Source: a virus
IMG/VR virus record: IMGVR_UViG_3300044491_002339
Location: 1-23,351 of that record
Reading direction: 5' to 3' (one strand)
Length of the DNA stretch: 23,351 nt
Shown: positions 6,144 to 19,489 of the stretch, in pieces
Layout: each line of letters starts with the position of its first letter
How positions within the stretch are numbered: position 1 is the first letter of the stretch
Program-made: the position numbers and the translations under genes
Notes under the pieces: generated by a model
Database searches by the model: none
What the model saw: the letters and a program-made list of their open reading frames with translations, nothing else
What the model was told of the DNA's origin: nothing

Positions 6144-7289
6144 ATGGCTGATTTTTCATTAACCACGTTATTCGTGGTGCCAGTGGGGCAGACTGCTCTC
6201 CCTAGCTCTGGTTCGACACAAGATCTTACTGCAGGTCAAGTAGGTATCTTTAAACCTGATTACACCGTAGCAACAGCTACTAACATCGAAGATGCTGGTG
6301 TTAATTATTTTTATGTAGCCCAAGGGCGTACAAACACTTACTTGCAAGGATCAAAGAGATCTGATAAAATTGCTGGTGCTCTTCAAAATGGCGGTACTAA
6401 CTTAAAAGCAAACGTTACTGAATGGTACAAAGTTTCAGGTTGTTCTACAGCTGCAAACCAAATTACTGATGTAACAAATTTTTCTGTAGGATGTGGTGAA
6501 GTTGTAACTTTAACATTACGTGCTCACTCTTCTTACATTGATACATTATACTTCAATGGATTTACACGTTCTGTAACTGTAAATGCTCCATGTTGTGACT
6601 GTGGTGCTGATGTATGTACTGATGTTGATACTAATGCATTAATTAACTCTATTATTGCTAAGTTGGAGCAAGCTGCTCCTGGTGATAACCCAGACAACAT
6701 TTCTTTCAACAGCTTCTTTACTTTTGAAAATGTTGGTGGAACTATCTTACGTATCCACGGTAAGCCATTAACTAAATATGGTCAACCATGTGATATCGCA
6801 GCTTTCCCATTCGAATATGACAGAATGTATTTCAATACATTTGTATACGAAGGACCTGCTACAACTGCTGACTTCATCGTTTCTGATGCTTGTAACATTG
6901 TTGCTACATCATCTGTAATCCAAAAAGCATCTTATGCTTCTGGAGGATCTGAAGAATTCAAGCAATTAGAGAAGAACTTCTACAGCTACCAAGCTGGATA
7001 CCTAAAGTCTCTATACCGTATGAACGGATACAATGAGAACTTTGAATCTTATGTTTCTGATGGTGTTACTTATGATAGCTACTACATCAAATTCAATGAA
7101 TATGACAAGTCTGCTTACCAGTGGGGTGATTATATTCATCAAGATTCTACAGTGATCATTGCTGCTCCAAATGCTGATACAAGTGGTATCGCTGCTGCTA
7201 TAGAAGCTGTATTAGAAGCTGCTTTAGGTACTGTTGTTGATGACAACACTTGTATCACTACAACCACTACTACAACTGCTGCACCTTAA
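6144..7289 (+). CDS. Auxiliary capsid-like virion protein with Thr-rich tail
   Basis: A 381-residue, beta-rich-looking protein directly before the terminator that closes the capsid block. Its place two genes after the capsid protein and its capsid-like codon choices suggest an abundant virion protein, perhaps an auxiliary (decoration) capsid protein; I cannot prove which. It has a Cys cluster at about residues 150-158 (CCDCGADVC), which may bind metal or form disulphides, then a short helix and a second domain with many Tyr and Phe (~185-360). The end is seven consecutive Thr then AAP (codons 7257-7286), the same low-complexity sequence used as linkers in the adhesins downstream, but here with nothing after it. 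The start is ATG in an A-run (aaaaaaATG) without a Shine-Dalgarno sequence. Confidence 0.65.
   Translation: MADFSLTTLFVVPVGQTALPSSGSTQDLTAGQVGIFKPDYTVATATNIEDAGVNYFYVAQGRTNTYLQGSKRSDKIAGALQNGGTNLKANVTEWYKVSGCSTAANQITDVTNFSVGCGEVVTLTLRAHSSYIDTLYFNGFTRSVTVNAPCCDCGADVCTDVDTNALINSIIAKLEQAAPGDNPDNISFNSFFTFENVGGTILRIHGKPLTKYGQPCDIAAFPFEYDRMYFNTFVYEGPATTADFIVSDACNIVATSSVIQKASYASGGSEEFKQLEKNFYSYQAGYLKSLYRMNGYNENFESYVSDGVTYDSYYIKFNEYDKSAYQWGDYIHQDSTVIIAAPNADTSGIAAAIEAVLEAALGTVVDDNTCITTTTTTTAAP
7257..7286 (+). repeat. Thr stub at end of auxiliary-capsid-like protein
   Basis: Seven consecutive ACN codons followed by Ala-Ala-Pro and the stop. It is the first occurrence of the linker sequence and is not followed by a domain. 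Confidence 0.75.
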
Positions 7290-7329
7290 TCAGTAGAGTA
7301 GTAGGGATAGACTAATAAATAATAAACCT

Positions 7330-7376
7330 ATGCCAGAGGTGAGAGGATTAATCTCAGATCCTCTGGCATTTTTTTT
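7330..7376 (+). terminator. Strong intrinsic terminator closing the capsid block
   Basis: ATGCCAGAGG (7330-7339) pairs with CCTCTGGCAT (7360-7369), and inside it TGAGA (7340-7344) can pair with TCTCA (7352-7356). Eight Ts run from 7369 to 7376. This is the clearest terminator in the window. The next gene starts just 11 bases later, leaving no room for a promoter between them, so downstream genes need readthrough or a promoter inside the preceding gene. Confidence 0.85.
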
Positions 7377-7387
7377 AAAACAAAAGT

Positions 7388-7960
7388 ATGGCAGCCAATT
7401 TACAGTTAGATATTATAGTGACTCCTAGCTATAGTACTCTGTTGCTTGCTGTTACAGATGCGTCTATTTATCCAGATAGTCCTCCAGTTGTATCAGCTCC
7501 AACAATTGAAATAGAAGTACCAAATTTTGGTAAAAAGATATTACCCTTCCTACCGTTAGAGACTAACATCTTTGCGTCAGACACTTTAGGAATCACTGAA
7601 GATGGTTGCAAACAAGCTCTACCTGACGGTATATATAAGTTAAAATATTCTATAGCTCCAGCATATCTAAACTATGTTGAGAAGACTATTATGCGTGTTG
7701 ACAAACTACAGGAGAAGTTTGACAATGCGTTTTTAAAGCTTGATATGATGGAGTGCGATAGTGCTCTTAGAACTCAAGCTAGTGTGAATTTAAACACAAT
7801 CAACTTTTTTATTCAAGGAGCAATTGCTGCAGCAAATAATTGTGCTGAGCAAGAAGCTCTTAAGTTATATACAAAAGCAAGCACTATGCTTGATCAATTT
7901 TTGAAAACCAATTGTGGTTGTTCTGGTAACGGTAACAACTACATTATAAACTTTAGATAA
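7388..7960 (+). CDS. Structural protein of unknown function
   Basis: A 190-residue protein opening the adhesin block. Residues ~1-95 look beta-rich (hydrophobic alternating segments, Pro-rich around 30-37). Residues ~97-175 look all-helical, with a Cys pair pattern and the segment NFFIQGAIAAANNCAEQEALKLY, then a C-terminal Cys-Gly-Cys (NCGCSGNG) and a short beta-like end. I do not recognise a named family; the beta-then-helical design with terminal cysteines fits a small fibre base or adaptor. Its stop is separated by one base from the start of the Cys miniprotein, so the two are probably translationally coupled. It lies right after a strong terminator and must rely on readthrough. Confidence 0.6.
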   Translation: MAANLQLDIIVTPSYSTLLLAVTDASIYPDSPPVVSAPTIEIEVPNFGKKILPFLPLETNIFASDTLGITEDGCKQALPDGIYKLKYSIAPAYLNYVEKTIMRVDKLQEKFDNAFLKLDMMECDSALRTQASVNLNTINFFIQGAIAAANNCAEQEALKLYTKASTMLDQFLKTNCGCSGNGNNYIINFR

Positions 7961-7961
7961 A

Positions 7962-8060
7962 ATGGCTCAGTGTGCAAATTGTGGTGCAAAGGTGGGATGT
8001 GGATGTCAGTTAACAAACGGTCTATGTGCTCATTGCAACAGTAATAATAAAGGAGTATAA
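7962..8060 (+). CDS. 32-residue cysteine miniprotein (zinc-ribbon-like)
   Basis: ATG at 7962 starts a 32-codon frame ending in TAA at 8060, one base after the previous stop and 15 bases before the next gene. The product starts MAQCANCGAKVGCGCQLTNG and continues with LCAHC. Cysteines are at 4, 7, 13, 15, 22 and 25, giving CxxC, CxC and CxxC, a spacing typical of small zinc-binding knuckles. Six Cys in 32 residues, in-phase spacing with both neighbours and a clean start and stop make chance unlikely. Zinc binding is inferred. It may be a small virion protein or a folding or assembly factor for the Cys-rich fibres around it. No RNA- or DNA-binding motif is evident. Confidence 0.65.
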   Translation: MAQCANCGAKVGCGCQLTNGLCAHCNSNNKGV

Positions 8061-8075
8061 ACATCACATTTAATT

Positions 8076-10766
8076 ATGTTAACACCCAGATTAACAAATT
8101 GTCAGGACTGTCACAAGATTCCTGACCTACTTAAACAGATTGATTGTAAGCTGGCAGAGCTTGCTAACGATGCATACAATGATGTTGTATTCATGTTAGG
8201 TAACTGTATCCCTGCTTATGAGATCAATCAGTTGTTAGCGTATAAACGTATACTAACGTTTAAGTATTGTAACCCTCATTATGCAGGGTCTGTTTCTGTT
8301 AACGATATTGCTGGTAAAGTAATTCGTTTAACAGCTGGATGTGTTAGCAGATGTAATGAACCAACTGTATGTGAAATCACTACATGTTGTGTTGATGTTG
8401 TACCAAACCCAACTACAACAACTACAAGTACTTCTAGTACAAGTACAACTACTACAAGTACATCATCAACAACTACAAGTACTACTACCATCTACCCAGA
8501 TTGTAGAGTGGAAGGATGTTTTGAAGAATTAACTACAACAACTACTACCACTAGTCCACCAACCACAACAACAACTACTACTGCTGCTGCGGTTACTGGA
8601 TGTAGTCAACCTTTTAATTTCAATGCTCCAGAAGGATTCCCAGGAGTTAATACTGGAAATGGAATTAAGACATTAAGTAATGGGACTATCTTAACTATGA
8701 CATCATCACCTAGTGGTTGTAACACTGTATATATTCCAGGTTCTTCTCCACAACTTGATCCTAATAATTGGGGTGATGAAACTTGTAGCTTACCTGGTGT
8801 TCACAACAATCAATTTAACAATGAAGGCTGGTATTTATTAGGTAGTGGTAGTTGTGCTCAAACTACACTACAGTTTAGTGAATCAGTAGGAGCATTAGCG
8901 TTTTATCAATCTGGGATAGGTTATTACCCTAACCCAGGAGAATTTGAAACAATAAATGTAACAGGTGATGTAGACCTTAGTATATCAACAATAGGAGTGT
9001 GTGAGGCAAATCCTGGTGATTGGCAAATTATTAATGAAACAGACGGTAGTGTAACATTCAAAGGAAGATTGTTTCAAGGAGAACGTGGACTAGTATCTTT
9101 ATTTGCCATCTATCCTAGAAATCCTGGTGATCGAATTGGTGAGTTAACATTCGAACACGTAGGAAGTAAGTTAGGAGGTGTTGGTTTAGATTTCTATCTA
9201 TGTCCAGATGATCAAACCACCACTACAACTACAACAACTGTAGCACCAACTACAACTACAACAACTACCACTGAGGTTCCAAATGTTAAATTAAATTGGG
9301 ACTTGTCAAACGGTGGAGAACCTATTAATGTTACAGCAATAATATCTAGAAACGGTATTAATACCATATATTCAAATGCAAATGACAATGGTTTAGTTCT
9401 CTGTAATGCTGGAGATGATATAGAAATTACTATTCAAACTGCGAAAACAGGAATATATGCATTTACAAATAGAGCTACCCTTGACGGAACTATTATATTA
9501 AATGATACATCAATAGAAACTGATAGTAAGTTATCTACAGTAAGTTTTGTAAAATCTGCTGCTACTGAAGAGCTGGACATGATAGGTCTTGTACAAAATA
9601 CAGAAACTACAACAACAACTACTAGTCATACCACTCAAATACCAGTCACAGGAAACTCATACTTTACTTTCTGGAGTGATGTTTCAGGTTCTATGAATTC
9701 CACAATTGCAGTGACAGCAAAAATAGCTAGTGTTACAGGTGTAAAAGTTCTAGTTTCTCCAACTGCACTAGCAGGATCAACAGAAATCCAACTGACACAG
9801 GGTAATCAGAATAATAAAGTTACCGTGCAAGATTCTAGTGGAAACACTACAGGTGGGGCGTATTTATGTGTGGTACCTGGCATGGAAGTTATACATCCTT
9901 CAATACCTGCAGGAACTTTTGTTGCTGCAGGATCAGATGTTCTAACATTTAATCTTGTAGACATTAATGGAAACCCTGTTGCATTAACAGCAGATATTAC
10001 CCAGGGACCCAATGGTGTTGTTACGTTTAATCTAACAGATGCTCAGAAAACTGCTGATTACCAAAACACATCTAATTTAAGAAACTTGCTTCAAGATTTC
10101 TATGCAACAGGATTAACTGAAGCAGAGGGTAATACAGACAGAGCTACCAATGGTAGTGATGAGTTTGAAGCTCGTGTATACTGGTGTCATAGTGGTCAAG
10201 AGAGACAAATTCAAATGCTCTCAAACAAAGGTCTTGGGGACACTATAGGCTCAACAGGATATTTCCCTGATGCAGACAGTTTAGTAATTATGGCCTTTGG
10301 TGATGAATCAGGAGTAGGATATAATATGGATGGTGAGTTTCCTACTTCAGGACCTAGGTGGGCAAATAGAGCAAGTCAAACAAATTCAAGAATAGTAGAT
10401 GATATATCAAGTGTAAGAACCTTTGTTACGAATCTAGAAAGTGCAGCAGGAAACACTAATATATATAGAGCTAAGTTTTTCCATCCTGAAGCTACCTCTC
10501 AATATGCATTATCAACAATAAAACCTCTAGTTTCACCTGAAGGACTTCTTAATGCAGGAAATGATGGTGCAGCTGTAGTTTCAAGTATTGGTAATGTTCC
10601 TGCTAGTGCTTACAACAGTCTTACAGATAATCTGATAAACTATCCAAGTGCAAGTCCTGCAAGATTTGCATGGTCAGCGGATCTAGATAATAATCCTGCT
10701 AACCCACAGCAGTACTGGTATGATCAAATAAGAGATGCATTAATAGCCTTTGGATATGGAGTTTAG
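8076..10766 (+). CDS. Multidomain virion adhesin with C-terminal vWA (MIDAS) domain
   Basis: An 896-residue protein with no signal peptide or membrane segment, probably mounted on the virion. Order: a Cys-rich helical anchor (1-110, starting MLTPRLTNCQDC, with a pattern I associate with Bacteroidota phages); Thr/Ser linkers (113-138, 153-169); a beta domain with several Cys (~173-378); linker (381-399); a beta domain with a KTG motif (~404-510); linker (511-517); then a vWA-like domain to the end. The MIDAS metal site is visible as DVSGS (D535, S537, S539). A ~115-residue beta-rich insertion with an IPAGT motif follows, then the helical part and a strand with MAFGDESG. vWA domains usually bind protein or glycan ligands through a divalent metal, so host attachment is likely but inferred. 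It ends in TAG followed at once by TAA. Confidence 0.8.
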   Translation: MLTPRLTNCQDCHKIPDLLKQIDCKLAELANDAYNDVVFMLGNCIPAYEINQLLAYKRILTFKYCNPHYAGSVSVNDIAGKVIRLTAGCVSRCNEPTVCEITTCCVDVVPNPTTTTTSTSSTSTTTTSTSSTTTSTTTIYPDCRVEGCFEELTTTTTTTSPPTTTTTTTAAAVTGCSQPFNFNAPEGFPGVNTGNGIKTLSNGTILTMTSSPSGCNTVYIPGSSPQLDPNNWGDETCSLPGVHNNQFNNEGWYLLGSGSCAQTTLQFSESVGALAFYQSGIGYYPNPGEFETINVTGDVDLSISTIGVCEANPGDWQIINETDGSVTFKGRLFQGERGLVSLFAIYPRNPGDRIGELTFEHVGSKLGGVGLDFYLCPDDQTTTTTTTTVAPTTTTTTTTEVPNVKLNWDLSNGGEPINVTAIISRNGINTIYSNANDNGLVLCNAGDDIEITIQTAKTGIYAFTNRATLDGTIILNDTSIETDSKLSTVSFVKSAATEELDMIGLVQNTETTTTTTSHTTQIPVTGNSYFTFWSDVSGSMNSTIAVTAKIASVTGVKVLVSPTALAGSTEIQLTQGNQNNKVTVQDSSGNTTGGAYLCVVPGMEVIHPSIPAGTFVAAGSDVLTFNLVDINGNPVALTADITQGPNGVVTFNLTDAQKTADYQNTSNLRNLLQDFYATGLTEAEGNTDRATNGSDEFEARVYWCHSGQERQIQMLSNKGLGDTIGSTGYFPDADSLVIMAFGDESGVGYNMDGEFPTSGPRWANRASQTNSRIVDDISSVRTFVTNLESAAGNTNIYRAKFFHPEATSQYALSTIKPLVSPEGLLNAGNDGAAVVSSIGNVPASAYNSLTDNLINYPSASPARFAWSADLDNNPANPQQYWYDQIRDALIAFGYGV
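8412..8582 (+). repeat. Thr/Ser linkers 1 and 2 of the 896-residue adhesin
   Basis: ACA/ACT/ACC codons with AGT, TCT and TCA Ser codons at 8412-8489 and 8532-8582, separated by a short Cys-containing peptide. The plus strand has almost no G here. Confidence 0.8.
9216..9272 (+). repeat. Thr linker 3 of the 896-residue adhesin
   Basis: Eight Thr, Val-Ala-Pro, eight Thr. The VAP break recurs in the giant adhesin at 13692-13808. Confidence 0.8.
9606..9626 (+). repeat. Thr linker 4, just before the vWA domain
   Basis: Six ACN codons and AGT separate the KTG-type beta domain from the vWA domain. Confidence 0.75.
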
Positions 10767-10790
10767 TAAAATCAAAAATTATAGATAGAG

Positions 10791-13700
10791 ATGACAATAA
10801 TAATAACATTAAGTTTTGCAGGCAATGAGACAGGTCCTTTTGACCTGTATTCAGACGCAACTGGTTTTGCTACACCGTTTGCTCAAAACGTTTCTAAAGC
10901 AGCGTTATTGGCTGGTTATCAAGTAGAGGCTCCTGATGGAACTACTGTTGTTAGATTGTACAGTTTCCAATTCTTATGTGCAGGAGAATATGTAGATATT
11001 TATTCTTGTGCTACACCAAACTGTGACTTTGCTGGAACTATTATTTGTCCTGTTACAACAACTACAACAACTTCATCATCATCTACCACTACAACAAGTA
11101 CTACATATTTTCCAAACCCATTCGATATACCATGTCTATGGTCTACTAATGGTGGTAATTCTGGATTAGTTGCTGTATACGATTTTGACACAAACACATC
11201 AACAGATGTATTAGTACCTAATGACTTTACAACCACTATAGGCATTAACAGACCTATATGTGCTACAGAAGATAAATTGTGGTTATCAGATGGTTTAAAT
11301 TATAATGATGCTCCAAGTGGAGACAATAATCCACTTTTTGATTATAGTTTAATTAGAGAGTATGACATTTCAACTACTTCAGGTGTAACATTAACTTATG
11401 TAAGAGAAATTAGAGTTGATGTAGGACGTGCATTTGGAAATTCTGAAGGTGCAATAAAAACAATAAGTGTAGTTGTAACACCTCCTGTTATAATTCCTAT
11501 AGATCCTAGTTATCCTCCAATTCCAGAATATTGGCCCACTTCAGATTTCCCTTACCTATTAGTAGGGGCACAGAGCCCAACAAAGGCTGAAGTTGCTGGT
11601 TGGGACATATCTACCACTGGCGATATTAGATTAGGTAAACAAGACATACTTGACTGGATTCCTCTTCTTTCTTTAAATCAAATACAGACAACAACTGGTA
11701 TTAGTGCTACTTCATTAGATCTTACAGGGACGTTTATTACTACAGATAACAATGTATTTATTGCATCTAGATTTAATGAACCAGTATCTCAAGGATATAA
11801 CCAACTTCAAGAGTTGAAGGGATTACCTCCATTCAATAGAGACACAACTGCAGGATGGCCTTTTGGAGGAGGTGCTAGTTGGATCACGGTTAATCAGGAA
11901 ATTGGTTTATTACCAATAATTAACCTTCAAGACCAAGGTGTTCCTGAATTTACTACATCTTGGAATGATATTAAAGCCATGCCTTCTTGGGGTGTAGATG
12001 GACTATTACAAGTATTGCAACCAGAAACAAATGAGGTATACACCATATCTCAGACACCAGATTATGAAGCTACATTAACAACCACTATACCTAATGATAA
12101 AGTTTGGTTAAGTTCTGCAACAGGTTGTGCTAATGTAGGACTTTTGAATCCTGATGATATAACTGGTTGTACACCAACTGCACTACCGATATTAGTAGAA
12201 TCTAACGGTGCTAACTATATAGGACCTATTACATTTACATATTTTGGAATGAGTGTTATAGCTTCTAGTGATGTCATAGGAGGTTTTCTAGCAGATGGAC
12301 CTCCATATCCTTTCACCACTGAGTGTGGAATTGGAATATCAGCATACACTCAAGTGATGAACGGAAACACAGGTGGTGCATCATTGGAAAATCCAGCATT
12401 TAGCTATACACTAGAGTTTCCTGTTCCAGTTAACAACATTCCATTAAGAACAGCTACTCTTGACGTAGGTGATAATTTTAGATTTACTACAAATGCAGCA
12501 TCAACTACATTATCAATAACTTCAGGATGTGAAGCAACTGTTCAGAACGGTAATGATCTCATTACAGATACAAGTGCTGGTGGGGGATCAGGAAGTGTAG
12601 AGGTTTTAGTAACAGGTTCTGAAGACTTTACAACACTAACATTTGTAGGAACAAATCAAGGGTTTGGTGGCCCTTGGAGTTTAGGATGTACTGTACCACC
12701 TCTAAATTGTAGATTAGTTTACTCTTCAAATTATGGTACTAGTTGTAATTCTGCAAGTAATGCAGGAAGATGTTTACCTGGACAAACAGCATTCAAAAAA
12801 TACTTTGCTTGGGATGTAAACACAAACACTCAACAAGAAATATTGTTACCACCAAGTACAGCAACAGGATCACCTAACTTTGCATTAAGTGAAAACTACA
12901 TTATTGTAGATGTTACATCACTTGTTACAGGTGTTAAAAGTTTAGCAAGATATGGATATACAGATGTAAATGGAATTCCTTCAGACACTACATTCGATGG
13001 ACAATTTATTGATTATCCAGTAGGTGATGTAAGAAATTCTGGTAGCATCATGGAAGCGGTGACTGACACTAAATTTTTAGGAACTTGGCAAAAAAGTGCT
13101 AATCAACCTTTTCCAACTGCTGTAAGTCAAATATTAGAGTGGGAGCTTTCAGGGGCAGAATTGTCTTACAGTGTTAAAATAGATGTAGGAGTAGATCACG
13201 GATATTTTGTTGATGGAGATTTATTATTGACATTTAAAACAGATGGCACTCCAAATAAGATAATAGGTGTAGGTTTTGTTCCACCATTACAGCCAGATTA
13301 TAGTAATCAAGAATTCTTATTACAATTTGATTATACAACAAATGCACTAGATGGAGTTGTGAACTTACCAGCAGGTAGTTCAGGAGGTGCAGCATTAGGT
13401 ATATATGATGGAGGTATTTACATAGCTCCTGCTTCTTGGAATACAGTTGCGCCAGAGTTTGCAGGAGTTTGGAGATTTGATTTAGAAACTTTACAGTGGA
13501 CACAACTAGATCCAGCAGATGTACCTGTAGAAATGTATCTACCAAATGTTGGACCTGGTGACTTTGCTTCCACTCCTCAATGTAGAGTTAGTGATGGTAT
13601 TACATCATTTGATCCACCACCAACTACAACAACAACAACCACTACAATATTTGAAGGTGTAAATACAATATGGACGTGGTTTGAAGCAGTAACACCTACT

Positions 13701-15098
13701 ACAACCACAACAACTGTTGCACCAACTACAACTACTACTAGTACATCTAGTACATCAACCACAACTACTAGTACAACTGTTGCACCAACTACCACTACAA
13801 CCACAACTCTTCCACCATTAGTTGGATGTCTAGAGTTTGACTATTTAACTCTTGTAACTGCTAGCAATTGGTATACAAATCCACCTCAACCTATAGATGT
13901 GAATTATCCATCTCTACTTACTCAAGTAGCTTTTAATACAGGACCAACTACAAACACAACAAGTTATACCGACTGGTCTCAAGTTCCAAATACCAACTAT
14001 GATGTAGTATTTAATATAGGAGGAGTAGACTATACAGCAGAGTATCAAGTTCTTAATATTGGAATTGGAGCAGTTAATGTTCCTTATGGTAAATTTAGCA
14101 CTAGCGGTGGTAACTTATCATCTATGTATGCATTCCAATTTTCAAAGATAGATGCAAATGGTAATGACTTATCATCAATACTTTCTACCTTTGATCATAC
14201 AACTGGAGATGGTATTAAAGTTACTGCATATGGAGATTGTACAACACCAACTACTACAACCACTACAACTGCTACTCCAGAAGACATTCCATGTACAGAT
14301 GGGTTGGATGTAGCATTTATAGTTGATTATACTCAATCAATGGGTAGCATAGTTGAAAATGTAAAAGCAGGAATAGCAGATATTGTAAATGCTATTTCTA
14401 CTGAGTCAGGTGCTGGTGGATATAGATTATCTTTAATCACTGCTGACGAAAACTCAAATGCCTTTCCTAATTATTTAAATTGTTCAGACTACATAAATTT
14501 ACCTAATGTACAAAAAATTATAAATGGTCCTAATCCAAGTATGGACCCAGCTAATACTGGAGATTTAGATGTCTATCAATTTATTACTACTTGGGAATTA
14601 TTCGGTGACAATAATGAAGCAACATTTAATCAACAACTTCAAAAATTAAATGGTGGTGTAGATGGTACATGTATTCAATTGGGTGCAGGTCTGTATGCTT
14701 CTGAACCTACTGACTATGCAGCTAAATTAGTTACAGAATCAAATTTTGCAGGAGCATTTAGAGCAAATGTTGCAAAACATATTGTTATATTAACTGACCA
14801 ATTTCCAGGAAGCACTAGAGATTATTTTGACGAAGTTACTTGGCAAGGTATACAAGATATGATTACCTATGCTAATGCAAATGGAATTAAATATTTTGTT
14901 TTAGGTGAAGGTGTAGATAAAGTAGGAGGAGATCAAGGTTCTTCACCTGCTGTAGATGGTATATATCCATGGAGAGAATTAGCAGAACAAACTGGTGGAA
15001 GTTGGAGCAATGATGCAAGTTCACAAGAAATACAACAGAAAATAATAACTGGATGTAATCCAACCACAACCACAACCACAACGGTAACACCAGTATAA
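10791..15098 (+). CDS. Giant modular adhesin: DLYSD module, tandem beta domains, vWA domain
   Basis: The largest gene here (1435 residues). Order: N-terminal DLYSD module (1-86), shared with four proteins downstream; Thr/Ser linker (89-105); a beta-rich, propeller-like region (~110-450) with repeated YDFDTNT / WDIS-type strands; a beta-sandwich-like region (~465-635) resembling in style the Cys-containing domain of the preceding adhesin; a second propeller-like region (~640-940) similar to the first; linkers (945-952, 968-1006); another beta domain (~1010-1150); linker; and a vWA domain (~1165-1425). Its MIDAS motif is DYTQS (D1179, T1181, S1183), with a later strand HIVILTDQF typical of vWA folds. 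The protein ends in a Thr stub. Binding of a host surface ligand is the likely role. The propeller call is by strand pattern only. The gene follows the first vWA gene by 24 bases. Confidence 0.78.
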   Translation: MTIIITLSFAGNETGPFDLYSDATGFATPFAQNVSKAALLAGYQVEAPDGTTVVRLYSFQFLCAGEYVDIYSCATPNCDFAGTIICPVTTTTTTSSSSTTTTSTTYFPNPFDIPCLWSTNGGNSGLVAVYDFDTNTSTDVLVPNDFTTTIGINRPICATEDKLWLSDGLNYNDAPSGDNNPLFDYSLIREYDISTTSGVTLTYVREIRVDVGRAFGNSEGAIKTISVVVTPPVIIPIDPSYPPIPEYWPTSDFPYLLVGAQSPTKAEVAGWDISTTGDIRLGKQDILDWIPLLSLNQIQTTTGISATSLDLTGTFITTDNNVFIASRFNEPVSQGYNQLQELKGLPPFNRDTTAGWPFGGGASWITVNQEIGLLPIINLQDQGVPEFTTSWNDIKAMPSWGVDGLLQVLQPETNEVYTISQTPDYEATLTTTIPNDKVWLSSATGCANVGLLNPDDITGCTPTALPILVESNGANYIGPITFTYFGMSVIASSDVIGGFLADGPPYPFTTECGIGISAYTQVMNGNTGGASLENPAFSYTLEFPVPVNNIPLRTATLDVGDNFRFTTNAASTTLSITSGCEATVQNGNDLITDTSAGGGSGSVEVLVTGSEDFTTLTFVGTNQGFGGPWSLGCTVPPLNCRLVYSSNYGTSCNSASNAGRCLPGQTAFKKYFAWDVNTNTQQEILLPPSTATGSPNFALSENYIIVDVTSLVTGVKSLARYGYTDVNGIPSDTTFDGQFIDYPVGDVRNSGSIMEAVTDTKFLGTWQKSANQPFPTAVSQILEWELSGAELSYSVKIDVGVDHGYFVDGDLLLTFKTDGTPNKIIGVGFVPPLQPDYSNQEFLLQFDYTTNALDGVVNLPAGSSGGAALGIYDGGIYIAPASWNTVAPEFAGVWRFDLETLQWTQLDPADVPVEMYLPNVGPGDFASTPQCRVSDGITSFDPPPTTTTTTTTIFEGVNTIWTWFEAVTPTTTTTTVAPTTTTTSTSSTSTTTTSTTVAPTTTTTTTLPPLVGCLEFDYLTLVTASNWYTNPPQPIDVNYPSLLTQVAFNTGPTTNTTSYTDWSQVPNTNYDVVFNIGGVDYTAEYQVLNIGIGAVNVPYGKFSTSGGNLSSMYAFQFSKIDANGNDLSSILSTFDHTTGDGIKVTAYGDCTTPTTTTTTTATPEDIPCTDGLDVAFIVDYTQSMGSIVENVKAGIADIVNAISTESGAGGYRLSLITADENSNAFPNYLNCSDYINLPNVQKIINGPNPSMDPANTGDLDVYQFITTWELFGDNNEATFNQQLQKLNGGVDGTCIQLGAGLYASEPTDYAAKLVTESNFAGAFRANVAKHIVILTDQFPGSTRDYFDEVTWQGIQDMITYANANGIKYFVLGEGVDKVGGDQGSSPAVDGIYPWRELAEQTGGSWSNDASSQEIQQKIITGCNPTTTTTTTVTPV
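11055..11105 (+). repeat. Thr/Ser linker 1 of the giant adhesin
   Basis: Seventeen codons of Thr and Ser right after the DLYSD module. Confidence 0.8.
13623..13808 (+). repeat. Thr/Ser linkers 2 and 3 of the giant adhesin
   Basis: Runs at 13623-13646 and 13692-13808. The second contains two copies of a TTVAPTTTT unit flanking Ser-rich parts, a direct repeat at DNA level. Confidence 0.8.
14241..14276 (+). repeat. Thr linker 4 of the giant adhesin, before its vWA domain
   Basis: Mostly ACN codons with one Pro and one Ala codon, placed just before the vWA domain as in the first adhesin. Confidence 0.75.
15063..15083 (+). repeat. Terminal Thr stub of the giant adhesin
   Basis: ACCACA three times then ACG, followed by five more codons and the stop. 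A perfect 6-base repeat with no domain after it. Confidence 0.75.
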
Positions 15099-15110
15099 AA
15101 CTAATAGAAT

Positions 15111-16421
15111 ATGTCACTAGAATTAACACAAGAAATAAAAGATAAGATAAAGGAGATTGTTAGAACAACTTCTAATATCACCTCTGTTGGTTATGGATAT
15201 AAAGTATCTAATGGTGTAAACACAGGAGAACCTTCTATTGTTTATGGTGTCGAAGTTAAAAAACCATTAGCAGAATTATCTTCTGAAGAATTACTTCCAT
15301 CTGAGGTGAGTATAGCAAATCAACCTATTAAGACAGATGTTGTCCAGATGGGAAAGATAGAGCCATTGAATTGTAATGGTGATTGTGGACAAAATGCTGG
15401 TGCAGCATCAATACCTAACAGATCATATACAAGACCTGTTAAAGGTGGATTGTCTATGACTAGTTTAAATAATAATAACACTGTAGGTACATTTGGACTT
15501 GTTGTAAAAGATGTTGCAACAGGATGTGTATTAGGACTTACAAACAATCACGTATCTATTGCAGATGCTTTTTATACAAATGCAAGAGATTTAAATGGAC
15601 AGATACAGAATGATTATGATCCAGTAGATAGTATATATCAAGGAACTGAAGGTGCAGGATATTTTGATCCAGCAAATATAATTGGAAGAGGTGTTAGATA
15701 TGTACCCTTACATCCACAAAGTTCAGGATTAACAAATAACGTAGATGCTGCATTATTTGCATTAAACTCAAGTGTATTATCTACTACTGAAAGTTGGAAA
15801 CAAGTCGGATTAGATGCTATTGTTACAGATTATTTACCTTTTGCTACCACTTTAGAAATAGATAACTTACTTGCAAGTAATGCACAATTATATAGTTCAG
15901 GAAGAACAACAGGACCTAAAGGTGGAGCTACATGTCCATTGAAAGCATTTCAATTAGGAGTTACTTTTCCAATAAGTTATAAAATGCAAGGAACTAGTAC
16001 AACAGTTATAATGACTGATGCTATAGTATACTTCAAACCTCCTGTAGATCATCCTGAATCACAAAATCCTGCAGAATATGGAGCATGTTGTAATCCAGTG
16101 AGAGGTGGAGACTCAGGTTCTGCATTAATTGCAGACATAGGAGGAACTATAAAAGTGATTGGATTAGTATTTGCAGGTAGTACTCCAAATTGTGATGGTG
16201 GACCTAACTCATATACATATGGAATTGCTTGTAGAATAGATGAAGTTGCTAGTCAGCTAGGTATTACTAGTTGGAATAGAGGAGATCAATTAAAAGTAGT
16301 GAATACTAGTACAATAGAATATAGAACAGAACCTGGAGGAAGTGATCAAAAAACTAAATCCTGTGATGGAAAAACTTTCTGGCAGGTTGGATTAACCGAT
16401 ACATTAGATAACCCTTGTTAA
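15111..16421 (+). CDS. Chymotrypsin-fold serine protease (PA clan)
   Basis: A 436-residue serine endopeptidase with a full catalytic triad in the right order: His147 in LTNNHV, Asp212 in NNVDAAL, Ser335 in RGGDSGSAL. The first ~90 residues (VGYGYKVSNG, later TDVVQMGKIEPL) look like the N-terminal domain often seen before bacterial trypsin-like domains and could be a propeptide. By ungapped alignment the residue six before Ser335 is Pro329, not the Asp that gives trypsin its Lys/Arg preference, so specificity is unknown. No signal peptide is seen, so delivery is via the virion or it acts in the cell. It stands 12 bases after the giant adhesin and 13 before the fibre gene. Possible roles are maturation of neighbouring adhesins or attack on host surface proteins. 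Class is sure; substrate is not. Confidence 0.88.
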   Translation: MSLELTQEIKDKIKEIVRTTSNITSVGYGYKVSNGVNTGEPSIVYGVEVKKPLAELSSEELLPSEVSIANQPIKTDVVQMGKIEPLNCNGDCGQNAGAASIPNRSYTRPVKGGLSMTSLNNNNTVGTFGLVVKDVATGCVLGLTNNHVSIADAFYTNARDLNGQIQNDYDPVDSIYQGTEGAGYFDPANIIGRGVRYVPLHPQSSGLTNNVDAALFALNSSVLSTTESWKQVGLDAIVTDYLPFATTLEIDNLLASNAQLYSSGRTTGPKGGATCPLKAFQLGVTFPISYKMQGTSTTVIMTDAIVYFKPPVDHPESQNPAEYGACCNPVRGGDSGSALIADIGGTIKVIGLVFAGSTPNCDGGPNSYTYGIACRIDEVASQLGITSWNRGDQLKVVNTSTIEYRTEPGGSDQKTKSCDGKTFWQVGLTDTLDNPC

Positions 16422-16434
16422 AATATAAAATACC

Positions 16435-17520
16435 ATGTCAAATAATTGCTCAAATTGCTACAACGGATGTACTGAGATTACCTCAGACAAATGCGTTAAA
16501 TATACAGGGGTAGATGTCCCTGTCTTAGGAATAAAGAATGGAGATTCACTCTCGTATGTAGAACAGTCTATTATAGGCTTCTTAAGTTCTACACTAGATG
16601 GTACAGGTATACTTCCTGTAATTAAGCCATCTGATGTATGTCCTACAGTGAATAAACATTTACCAGACTGTGACCCTATATCATTAAATAACTGGCTTAC
16701 AGCGCTTCTAAAAGCGTTATGTGCTTTAGAGAGTACAGTGGCTGAAATACCTTCTGCTAACCCTGCTACAGCTTATGATGTAGATTGTCTTACAGTGACT
16801 GATAATACAAATACAATAGATGTATTACAATCTGTAATATACAAAGTGTGTGATGTAGCTGAGCAATTAAATAACTTCATAACATATGTAGATGCTACGT
16901 ACGTAAAGATTTCAGATATTAATACGTACATTGAAAACTATATAAATGGTAATCCTACTCAACAGCTCATTAATCAAAGGATGGTTCCTTATTCTATTGT
17001 TGCTGCTACAGGTGGTTCTGCATTTTTAGATAATTTTAGTGCTTCTGGTGCTGGTATAGGTGAGTGGGATAGAATCTTCTTATGTAATGGTGAGAATGGA
17101 ACTCCTGATTTAAGAGGTAGAGTGATAGTTGGAACTAACGATGGAAGTATGGGTGGTGGAGCAATGGATGCAGCTGTTAACCCATCTTCAACAAACCCAA
17201 CTTATACAATAGGAGGTACACATGGTAATAACAGTGTTGTATTACAAACACCACAAATTCCTGCACACTCACACTCTACTACTGTTGGACCATCAACACC
17301 TACAATAACTCCTACAGGAACGGCAGCAGGACCTTACATTGGTAGTAATATTGGTGGAGGATTTAAAGGTGGGGATAATGACTTTAAACTGAGACCGTTT
17401 GTAGCAGATCCTCTTCCTTCACATACACATACTGTTACTGTTAATCCTACAGGTGGAGGACAAGGACACCAAAACTATCAACCTGGACGTGGAGTATATT
17501 ATATAATTTACATACCTTAA
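16435..17520 (+). CDS. Tail-collar-type fibre protein
   Basis: A 361-residue fibre with a Cys-rich N-terminus (CSNCYNGC) followed by the segment VKYTGVDVPVLGIKNGDSLS, which is similar to residues ~46-75 of the next protein and is probably a shared attachment module. Residues ~70-170 are helical and may trimerise. From ~185 there is a phage tail-collar domain: W-D-R-I-F-L-C-N-G, then GTPDLRGR at 222-229 and a Gly-rich loop, as in T4 short-fibre-like proteins. HSH at 278-280 and HTH at 330-332 are the His-x-His pairs that bind metal along the axis of such trimers. It ends in GVYYIIYIP, typical for collar domains. The role is receptor binding or fibre tip. The domain is well supported; where it sits on the virion is not known. 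Confidence 0.85.
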   Translation: MSNNCSNCYNGCTEITSDKCVKYTGVDVPVLGIKNGDSLSYVEQSIIGFLSSTLDGTGILPVIKPSDVCPTVNKHLPDCDPISLNNWLTALLKALCALESTVAEIPSANPATAYDVDCLTVTDNTNTIDVLQSVIYKVCDVAEQLNNFITYVDATYVKISDINTYIENYINGNPTQQLINQRMVPYSIVAATGGSAFLDNFSASGAGIGEWDRIFLCNGENGTPDLRGRVIVGTNDGSMGGGAMDAAVNPSSTNPTYTIGGTHGNNSVVLQTPQIPAHSHSTTVGPSTPTITPTGTAAGPYIGSNIGGGFKGGDNDFKLRPFVADPLPSHTHTVTVNPTGGGQGHQNYQPGRGVYYIIYIP

Positions 17521-17531
17521 AACAAAATAAA

Positions 17532-17870
17532 ATGGCATACCTACCTGTAAACCCTTGTTGCAATAATGTAGTTGTAAATAGCCCTTGTGGATGTAGTAGT
17601 ACATGCACTTGTGGTAGCTGCTCTACCAATTCTTGTGGAACTAATGGACCCCTATCAAGCACAGTTGTGTACGATGGTCCCACACTTCCAGGATCTGGTG
17701 TAGAAGCTTGCGACACAATTAATGTAGCATTATCAAAAATAGATGCTGTTCTTGTTGAATTAAAGAATCAAGTTGCAACTAACACATTTGCAATTTCTGC
17801 AATAACAGAACAGATAAATAACATAAATTCACAAATAACAACTATTAACAATAATTGTTGCCCAGAATAA
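17532..17870 (+). CDS. Small Cys-rich coiled-coil virion protein
   Basis: A 112-residue protein. Residues 9-35 hold eight Cys (9, 10, 19, 21, 25, 27, 30, 35) among Ser, Thr and Gly, likely a metal-bound or disulphide knot. Residues ~46-75 (VVYDGPTLPGSGVEACDTI) match the attachment-like module of the preceding fibre. The rest (~70-107) is a polar coiled coil rich in Asn, Ile and Gln, ending in NNCCPE. It looks like a fibre that kept the anchor and stalk but has no head domain. The TAA stop overlaps the next start by one base (TAATG), so the two are translationally coupled. Confidence 0.7.
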   Translation: MAYLPVNPCCNNVVVNSPCGCSSTCTCGSCSTNSCGTNGPLSSTVVYDGPTLPGSGVEACDTINVALSKIDAVLVELKNQVATNTFAISAITEQINNINSQITTINNNCCPE

Positions 17871-18124
17871 TGACAGTACTACTAACATTAACTACTGCAG
17901 GAACTGATACCACGGTGTTTGATTTATATTCAGACATCGATGGTTTCACCACTGCATTTGAAACAGATGTACCTGTAGCTTCTCTAACAGCTGGATATAG
18001 CTCTGCATTAGTGCCAGACTATACCAACACTGTAAGAGTTCAAGCTAAAATAAGATGTGTTAATTATGTAGATATAGTGTTAGAAAATACAACAATCACT
18101 ACCACAACAATACCAACACCATAA
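17870..18124 (+). CDS. DLYSD-module protein with Thr-rich stub
   Basis: 84 residues starting MTVLLTLTTAG. I place the start at 17870, because the ATG overlaps the previous stop and the protein then aligns with its relatives; an in-frame ATG at 17855 would add five residues and overlap the previous gene more. It contains FDLYSDIDGFTTAFE, then a Leu/Gly segment, TVRVQ and CVNYVDI, the signature of the family of five in this window. It ends with a stub of Thr (TITTTTIPTP) and no cargo domain. Function is unknown; a virion-attachment module is inferred from the larger relatives, in which it precedes linkers and adhesin domains. Confidence 0.7.
   Translation: MTVLLTLTTAGTDTTVFDLYSDIDGFTTAFETDVPVASLTAGYSSALVPDYTNTVRVQAKIRCVNYVDIVLENTTITTTTIPTP
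18089..18121 (+). repeat. Terminal Thr-rich stub of a DLYSD protein
   Basis: Eleven codons, seven of them Thr, end the 84-residue protein. Confidence 0.65.
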
Positions 18125-18127
18125 GAT

Positions 18128-19225
18128 ATGTTGATACAAATAAACATAACAATACCACCTGAAGGTTCCGCTGGACCTTTTGACTTATATTCAGATGCAG
18201 ATGGATATGCTGTTCCATTTGAAACACAAGTGCCTGCTGCAAGTTTAGTAGCTGGGTATATTGTAGAACTTCCTATGGGAGCAACTATCATAAGAGTGTG
18301 TTCTGTTGGTACATGTGAAAATTGTATTGACATACCAACTAATTGTCCAACCACTACAACAACGTCTACTAGTTCAACAACTACAACAACTAGTACTAGT
18401 AGTACAACCACCACAACTACCACTGCAGCCCCACCTTATAGGCTTAATTATGAACTTATTACAAATACTCCTTCAGATATAGGAACTGTTAATCTTATAA
18501 TAGAGGTTGATTCTGTTCAGGTGGTAAATCAAACAATAAGTGTTGGTAATACATATCAAGCAGGAACATTAAACCTCACTGCTGGTCAAGTTGTAATAGC
18601 AACAATGACTAGCACTAAAACAGGTACATTTAACTTTGGTAATAAAATAGTACAAGATGGATTTTTATATCAACCACAAGACAATTGTTCACCTTGTGTA
18701 GATCAATTAGTAACACCATTCTTCTCTCCATATACAATGGGAAGTGCTAACACTACATTTGTATTCCAAGGTGATGTTAGGCCTCCTACAACAACTACTA
18801 CTAGTACAAGTAGCACAACTACTACCACTAGTAGTACTACCACTACAACCACTACAGCAACACCACTTGATTGTGCGTTGAATGGTGGAACTGCAGTATT
18901 TAATCCACCAGTTACAACTACAACCACCACAACCTCTTTACTTGCTAGAGGAATTATTACTAGCTTATCAAATCCTATGGATGGTTGTAATTTAGGCACA
19001 CCAGATCAAGTAGTGTGGTTCTCTAACACAACTGGAAGTTTTGGTAGTGAAGTTCCAACTACAGGAGGTAGTGTAGTGTATACAAATCCTACTGGAGCAA
19101 CTAGATTTAATGGAGATGGTAATAATTACAAAATGAGAGTAGAGCAAGGACCTTTTGTAGGTGCAGAAGTATCTATAAATGGATTAGTAGAAAGTCCAAT
19201 AAGTTTCTGTTCACCACCACCTTAA
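18128..19225 (+). CDS. DLYSD-module adhesin with Thr/Ser linkers and cargo domains
   Basis: 365 residues. Order: DLYSD module (1-73, FDLYSDADGYAVPFE ... CIDI); Thr/Ser linker (75-99); a beta domain (~103-218) with a KTGTFNFGN segment similar to residues ~404-510 of the 896-residue adhesin; linker (221-245); a short Cys segment (DCALNGGTAVFNP); a linker of seven Thr (263-269); and a C-terminal beta domain with two Cys ending CSPPP. No catalytic motif or membrane segment is seen. It begins three bases after the previous stop. It is likely a virion-displayed binding protein built from the same parts as its neighbours. Its domain sharing with another protein is the best local sign of domain exchange. 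Confidence 0.72.
   Translation: MLIQINITIPPEGSAGPFDLYSDADGYAVPFETQVPAASLVAGYIVELPMGATIIRVCSVGTCENCIDIPTNCPTTTTTSTSSTTTTTSTSSTTTTTTTAAPPYRLNYELITNTPSDIGTVNLIIEVDSVQVVNQTISVGNTYQAGTLNLTAGQVVIATMTSTKTGTFNFGNKIVQDGFLYQPQDNCSPCVDQLVTPFFSPYTMGSANTTFVFQGDVRPPTTTTTSTSSTTTTTSSTTTTTTTATPLDCALNGGTAVFNPPVTTTTTTTSLLARGIITSLSNPMDGCNLGTPDQVVWFSNTTGSFGSEVPTTGGSVVYTNPTGATRFNGDGNNYKMRVEQGPFVGAEVSINGLVESPISFCSPPP
18350..18424 (+). repeat. Thr/Ser linker 1 of the 365-residue adhesin
   Basis: Twenty-five Thr and Ser codons directly after the DLYSD module. Confidence 0.8.
18788..18934 (+). repeat. Thr/Ser linkers 2 and 3 of the 365-residue adhesin
   Basis: Runs at 18788-18862 and 18914-18934 flank a short Cys segment, much like the paired linkers at 8412-8582. 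Confidence 0.8.
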
Positions 19226-19261: not shown

Positions 19262-19489
19262 ATGGCAGCAACAATGACAATAAGACTAACCTCAGCAGGT
19301 GTTGATACAAGCACTGTTGACATATATACAGATTCAGATGGTTATACTACACGAATAGGATTTACAACAACAGAAGTGCTCACTGGTCCATTTGGGTTTA
19401 CAGTAGGTAGACCTTCTTTTTCAACTACTGTAAGAATACAAAATACAGGCGTGTGTACTAATTACGTAGATATACCAATAACAGAATAA
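19262..19489 (+). CDS. Stand-alone DLYSD-module protein
   Basis: 75 residues made only of the module: VDIYTDSDGYTTRIGF, a Gly/Pro middle, TTVRIQNTGVCTNYVDI. It has no linker or cargo. It diverges most in the middle, with FGFTVGRP where others have a GY segment. The ATG follows an AT-rich 36-base gap. Its TAA overlaps the next ATG by one base (TAATG), so the two modules are coupled. Function is unknown; the size suits a small repeated virion subunit. Confidence 0.65.
   Translation: MAATMTIRLTSAGVDTSTVDIYTDSDGYTTRIGFTTTEVLTGPFGFTVGRPSFSTTVRIQNTGVCTNYVDIPITE

Follow-up and report, generated by a model that had tools for sequence, protein, structure and literature searches.

The shuffling of adhesin domains is already known in phages. 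In T-even phages, according to the passage of PMC12529663 that cites Tetart 1998, recombination between conserved glycine-rich motifs of gp38 swaps adhesin specificity. Smug 2023 (PMC10684548) reported fragments common to otherwise non-homologous phage structural proteins, the hot spots including tail proteins, and the passages cited from PMC13370021 and PMC6949934 describe modular Ig-like/BACON adhesins with different domain combinations in gut crAss-like phages. The locus described here likely encodes a set of proteins in which a fixed N-terminal anchor is followed by a Thr/Ser linker and exchangeable cargo, with swaps occurring at the linkers and the proteins probably being virion-associated. 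As in systems of the T-even gp38 kind, variable modules alternate with recurring low-complexity motifs, and the breaks fall at these motifs.

The window, meaning the whole stretch of DNA analyzed, is a 23,351-base IMG/VR virus fragment (IMGVR_UViG_3300044491_002339) with its main genes on the + strand. The gene order is portal C-terminus, major head protein, head proteins and tract genes, followed by an exonuclease and further head proteins from 19,898; a protease-like and a collar-like gene, the latter (16435-17520) with Gp10_C similarity, sit among the tract genes. The lineage is here termed crAss-like in the wide sense, and the phage is an uncultivated one. The full-length portal of a relative (L144) shares approximately 24-28% identity with many crAss-like records (e.g. 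cr50_1, E 3e-51), and the major head protein matched only Fipvunavirus phages and Leptolyngbya phage Lbo-JY46 at E <= 1e-5. A candidate tract in the region of the Leptolyngbya phage was rejected as probably due to chance, being a single run that nearby stops interrupt. Comparison with 50,697 phage records yielded no close relative, the F1 anchor and the protein of ORF 10791 had no match in the same records, and no isolate of the clade turned up.

Approximately 14 Thr/Ser tracts are encoded in the window, distributed over five genes on the same strand (ORFs 6144-7289, 8076-10766, 10791-15098, 17855-18124 and 18128-19225), of which 13 are recovered by a fixed rule (a 9-aa window containing 7 or more T/S, of which 4 or more are T) and one is a short extra. 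This agrees with the original observation of ACN-coded Thr/Ser tracts at a dozen or more places in five proteins. In 200 trials, residue shuffles within the same proteins gave 1.2 tracts on average and never more than 6, compared to the 13 real ones. Threonine in the tracts is encoded by ACA (74), ACT (71), ACC (28) and ACG (2), and serine often by AGT. The tracts had also been described as near-identical DNA, and this part did not hold: the longest exact match between any two window tracts is 18 bp, and strings common to tracts have a mean length of 11.3, versus 11.5 +/- 0.4 in synonymous-codon shuffles. Thus, the tracts are low-complexity junctions and not one conserved DNA repeat. Each of eight relatives of 98-114 kb contains 8-23 seven-Thr patterns, all on the same strand of that genome, compared to 0-4 for a reversed control pattern. 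Most tracts are flanked by domains on both sides, as had been proposed for nearly all of them, but three (7248-7277, 15063-15089 and approximately 18095-18121) are C-terminal tails with no cargo behind them.

The individual features, all on the + strand, begin with the F3 protein (6144-7289), whose tail is CITTTTTTTAAP and which ends in the cargo-free tract at 7248-7277. ORF 8076-10766 opens with anchor F2 (8076-8411), a family with 22 different right neighbours, followed by a region (8412-8582) of two linker tracts, 8412-8489 and 8532-8582, with a 14-residue insert, where homology between window and relatives stops at 8425-8555. Cargo F9 (8583-9215), predicted to be all-beta (model pLDDT 76), lies behind F2 or F18 anchors in relatives, and the linker tract that follows it (9216-9272) has a block edge at 9216 in L006, L038 and L139. 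Next are cargo F6 (9273-9599), with 54 members found behind F1, F2 and F18 anchors, a linker tract (9600-9635) with a block edge at 9629-9639 in L126, L133-L138 and L151, and cargo F15 (9636-10766), which starts with a DVSGS motif that may correspond to a vWA metal site, although F15 has no Pfam match.

In ORF 10791-15098, an F1 anchor (10791-11054), a paralogous copy of which is predicted to form a small beta-rich fold, is joined by a linker tract (11055-11105) to cargo F7 (11106-13622), a module of approximately 800-840 residues found behind F1 or F2 anchors and bearing a weak Kelch similarity below the cut-off. Two linker tracts, 13623-13646 and 13692-13808, the second with VAPTTTTT units, occupy 13623-13808 with a 15-residue insert and lead to cargo F13 (13809-14240), which occurs behind F1, F2 and F18 anchors. 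A further linker tract (14241-14276), with a block edge at 14237-14247 in nine loci, precedes cargo F21 (14277-15062), a vWA domain (PF00092, E 9.7e-7, 29.6 bits versus a curated cut-off of 23.8), and the C-terminal tract at 15063-15089, identified by the fixed rule and translation, closes the protein.

Downstream, the protease-like protein (15111-16421; phrog_20754), a relative of the likewise protease-like F18, and a short protein (17532-17870) that resembles anchor F5 when compared by eye are both free of tracts in the window; F18 and F5 themselves carry cargo elsewhere, in the former case behind a tract, and N-terminal proteins can therefore stand alone. An F1 anchor paralogue (17867-18124, in ORF 17855-18124) has the short cargo-free end tract TTITTTTIPTP. 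ORF 18128-19225 contains an F1 anchor (18128-18349, by alignment and fold prediction), a linker tract (18350-18424) with a block edge at 18390-18424, cargo F6 (18437-18787, by alignment), a region (18788-18937) of two linker tracts found by the fixed rule, 18788-18862 and 18914-18937, with a short insert, and a C-terminal cargo (18938-19222) that is F4-type by position, given the F1-F6-F4 order of 37 complete relatives. An F1-like anchor paralogue without a tract (19262-19489) is recognized by alignment and reading frame.

Besides F21, the F14 module of relatives is identified as FISUMP / Fib_succ_major (PF09603, 154.5 bits versus a 33.9 cut-off; TIGR02145, 95.6 bits versus 41.65). The F1 anchor is modelled as a small beta-rich fold (pLDDT 86.5) whose significant fold matches were only in Virus NIOZ-UU157. 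Against PDB, Foldseek gave no match at E <= 0.001 for the F1 and F9 models, the Ig-like PDB matches of F1 being non-significant, and searches of PDB sequences with the major head protein, vWA cargo, protease-like, collar-like and F24 proteins and the F1 profile returned nothing useful. Pfam and PHROGs gave no gp38 match for the tract proteins. Scans with the F21 and F13 cargo matched only contigs of the same clade.

Five scans provided a comparative set of 154 loci on 124 related IMG/VR contigs, in which 336 distinct tract proteins, from mechanically called reading frames, were cut at their tracts into 834 modules of at least 30 residues belonging to 90 families. Six of these families are anchors, lying N-terminally in 318 of 322 members (F1 113/113, F2 70/70, F3 63/64, F5 53/56, F18 11/11 and F24 8/8), while the 24 other families with at least five members are N-terminal only once in total (1 of 26 F9 modules). 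Behind a given anchor the architecture varies widely: complete proteins show 37 architectures in 70 for F2, 39 in 46 for F5, 24 in 105 for F1 and 8 in 11 for F18, the last being followed by F9, F11, F13 or F43. Conversely, 23 of 77 cargo families occur behind at least two different anchors, and blastn with the window gives blocks that stop at tracts and finds its cargo in other genes. Different domains behind the same anchor were thus found as predicted, together with the same cargo behind different anchors, and the pattern that had been named as refuting the idea, an unchanged order with no breakpoints at the tracts, was not seen among the relatives.

The position of the joins was addressed with a test of module neighbours and with unmasked DNA ends. 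These replaced a masked-protein boundary test, in which 92% of boundaries fell near tracts at 85% identity or more, and which was not retained as the main evidence, a random-mask control having revealed that masking alone creates boundaries. For modules sharing 85% identity or more, the module beyond the tract is non-homologous in 388 of 1786 comparisons, a count of non-independent pairs in which some changed neighbours may be remote relatives, the families being formed by single linkage. Breaks inside modules number only 8 pairs, all in F7 near residue 495, so that the predicted breakpoints at ACN tracts are borne out. At the DNA level, 48 of 86 unmasked ends at 85% identity or more lie within 30 bp of a tract, versus 11.9% expected. 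The other ends are found chiefly in three places: the collar-like gene, the ends of genes and the vicinity of the protease-like gene's 3' end; the tracts are therefore not the sole exchange sites. The overall prediction of anchor-linker-cargo exchange is partly supported: the architecture and the linker joins stand, but exchange also proceeds where no tract is present, the collar-like gene being itself a tract-free mosaic.

Recent swaps can be followed in near-identical contigs. Four of these (L075, L080, L102 and L105) share 97-99% nucleotide identity over approximately 1.1 kb comprising the upstream gene and the F2 anchor, and three (L075, L102 and L105) are also 97-98% identical along 0.8-1.1 kb of the collar-like gene downstream. 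The cargo of the four nevertheless differs, being F4 in L075, F57 with F7 in L080, F50 in L102 and F7 in L105. Identity in this set ends in the tract; the first cargo stretch is common to L080 and L102 (98%), and only L080 and L105 carry the protease-like gene. L034 and the window agree at 96% in both the anchor and the protease-like gene, but the 2.5-kb F7 module is absent from L034, where tract 11055 is joined to tract 13623 so that the sequence continues at window position 13613; L034 also has more VAPTTTTT units and a C-terminal domain other than vWA. L038 is 93-94% identical on both sides, differs at 8668-9216 and is without F15.

Cargo has also moved between lineages. F21 is 95.1% identical in nucleotides in the L131 contig, where it lies behind F2-F9 instead of behind F1-F7-F13 as in the window, versus 85.3% for the backbone. 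Likewise, F13 is 90.9% identical in contigs with a 77.5% backbone, and F15 is 91.9% identical in the L151 contig versus an 80.1% backbone. Identity of 91-95% in such cargo, versus 77-85% in the backbone, indicates horizontal exchange. Tract length changes as well, as had been anticipated, differing in 29 of 96 pairs, which are not independent events, with both flanks at least 90% identical; in one example tracts of 84 and 73 residues lie between 100% identical flanks. The near-identical contig L001 (99.94% over 6.3 kb) aligned through three tracts unbroken.

These observations are best accommodated by cargo modules being gained, lost and swapped among anchors and phage lineages; in such a mechanism the N-terminal domains would fix the proteins to the virion, displayed cargo would bind surfaces and exchange would shift host use. 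A linker would accept joining almost anywhere in frame, since every ACN/AGT stretch still encodes a flexible Thr/Ser spacer; short ACN similarity of approximately 10-20 bp may assist the alignment of the ends, and unequal pairing within a tract would alter its length. Since vWA, FISUMP and beta-rich modules are kinds found in surface proteins, the most likely use of the cargo is varied attachment to host surfaces or surroundings. Counted against this explanation are the shuffle-level similarity of the tract DNA, the breaks at tract edges, the tract-free collar mosaic and the cargo-free tract of F3.

Whether tract DNA contributes to the joining is evenly balanced. It may be that joins arise anywhere and selection keeps those between domains, tract DNA having no role, with the same architecture and exchange as outcome. 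Tract DNA that does not differ from synonymous shuffles, with no exact match above 18 bp, agrees with such passive linkers, as does the exchange in the collar-like gene. Where cargo differs, the median reach of identity into the tract is 10 nt at the 5' side (n=67) and 22.5 nt at the 3' side (n=22), compared to medians of 90-100% of the tract where the cargo is the same, and in several pairs, some of them recent, identity stops 0-2 nt into the tract. However, the joining of two tracts in L034 and the frequent length change would also fit pairing between tracts, and are not decisive.

A stronger proposal is that the ACN tracts form a shared exchange code for a clade-wide cargo pool, many anchors accepting many cargo modules because their junctions share interchangeable low-complexity coding sequence, with the tract DNA itself raising the rate of joining. 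Tract-to-tract joins and length change fit promotion of this kind, whereas the lack of excess DNA similarity and the breaks at tract edges fit mere tolerance, and the proposal is at present a tentative one. Somewhat more doubtful is the suggestion that the tracts themselves serve a function, for instance as O-modified or extended display stalks, and that joining at them is a by-product. All 63 complete N-terminal relatives of F3 retain the cargo-free C-terminal tract, and tracts reach 84 residues in the comparative set, both of which favor such a function; most tracts are nevertheless flanked by domains on both sides, and a stalk would be compatible with anchor-linker-cargo exchange.

Artefactual joining of assemblies at repetitive tracts deserves mention, as every contig comes from a metagenome assembly and the tracts are of low complexity. 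It is nonetheless highly improbable, given the short exact matches among window tracts, the recurrence of junctions (65 of 171 in at least two samples, 43 in at least three), the reading frames that stay open across joins and the same F2-F9-F21 order in seven complete proteins of diverged genomes. Equally remote is a dedicated switching system, such as the diversity-generating retroelements, invertases and integrases that are known to vary phage adhesins, since the 612 tract ORF records all share one strand and eight relatives of 98-114 kb, whose records may be incomplete, gave no reverse transcriptase (RVT_1; 0 of 8), phage integrase, resolvase, RecT or ERF match.

The exchange of cargo at linkers finds its nearest parallels in the systems introduced above. 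The closest F1-type anchors are in predicted proteins of Virus NIOZ-UU157, an unclassified virus, with 81% identity over 74 residues and a fold E of 4e-11, alongside four further F1-type matches. Gut crAss-like phages likewise have modular and probably surface-binding proteins, but their adhesins consist of other domains in another environment, and the passages cited make no mention of Thr-linker exchange. The text of PMC10684548 uses neither the word linker nor threonine, and nothing relevant on threonine-rich phage linkers was found in the literature searched; here one linker type marks most joins in several anchor genes. The likeness to T-even gp38, as far as the cited passage describes it, is the alternation of conserved low-complexity motifs with variable segments. 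There, variable loops of one small adhesin are exchanged and specificity is altered; here, in a system known from sequence alone, whole domains are exchanged in several genes, at Thr/Ser linkers and in an unrelated lineage. What sets the present case apart is that most joins, across at least six anchor genes of a widespread environmental phage clade, carry one recognizable linker, which makes anchors, linkers and cargo readable from the sequence and provides a route to new candidate surface-binding domains, in a cargo pool that may be large, and to the pace of exchange in metagenomes. These phages appear to rebuild their probably host-touching parts by mixing interchangeable modules.

The anchor-tract-cargo scheme is not confined to the window, since the F24 protein (about 1,500 residues, with its own N-terminal module family), encoded downstream of the window region at three loci from relatives (L004:13440-19595, L125:21034-26079 and L126:12467-17425), has a C-terminal part made up of modules of families F25, F20 and F12 joined by Thr/Ser-rich tracts. 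The F3 protein ends in such a tract without cargo in all 63 complete copies compared (7248-7289 in the window), and these terminal tracts are of two types, CITTTTTTTAAP or CITTTTTTSSAPASTTTTTSTNIP. The retention of a tract with nothing after it is not accounted for by a function as a linker only. The third F1-like anchor paralogue (19262-19489) carries neither tract nor cargo; no long ORF lies 3' of it until 19897.

Two of the tract genes, ORF 8076 (8076-10766) and ORF 10791 (10791-15098), look optional in the clade, because L155, a contig from the same phage clade, has a single small F1 gene and lacks counterparts of both. This contig was found inside a Tissierellales metagenome bin, most likely through misbinning.

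Among relatives, the collar-like gene (16435-17520) is a mosaic of blocks with edges near 16617 and 17284-17452, and it contains no tract. This gene, which shows Gp10_C similarity, is a second site of exchange, of a kind other than the tract joins.
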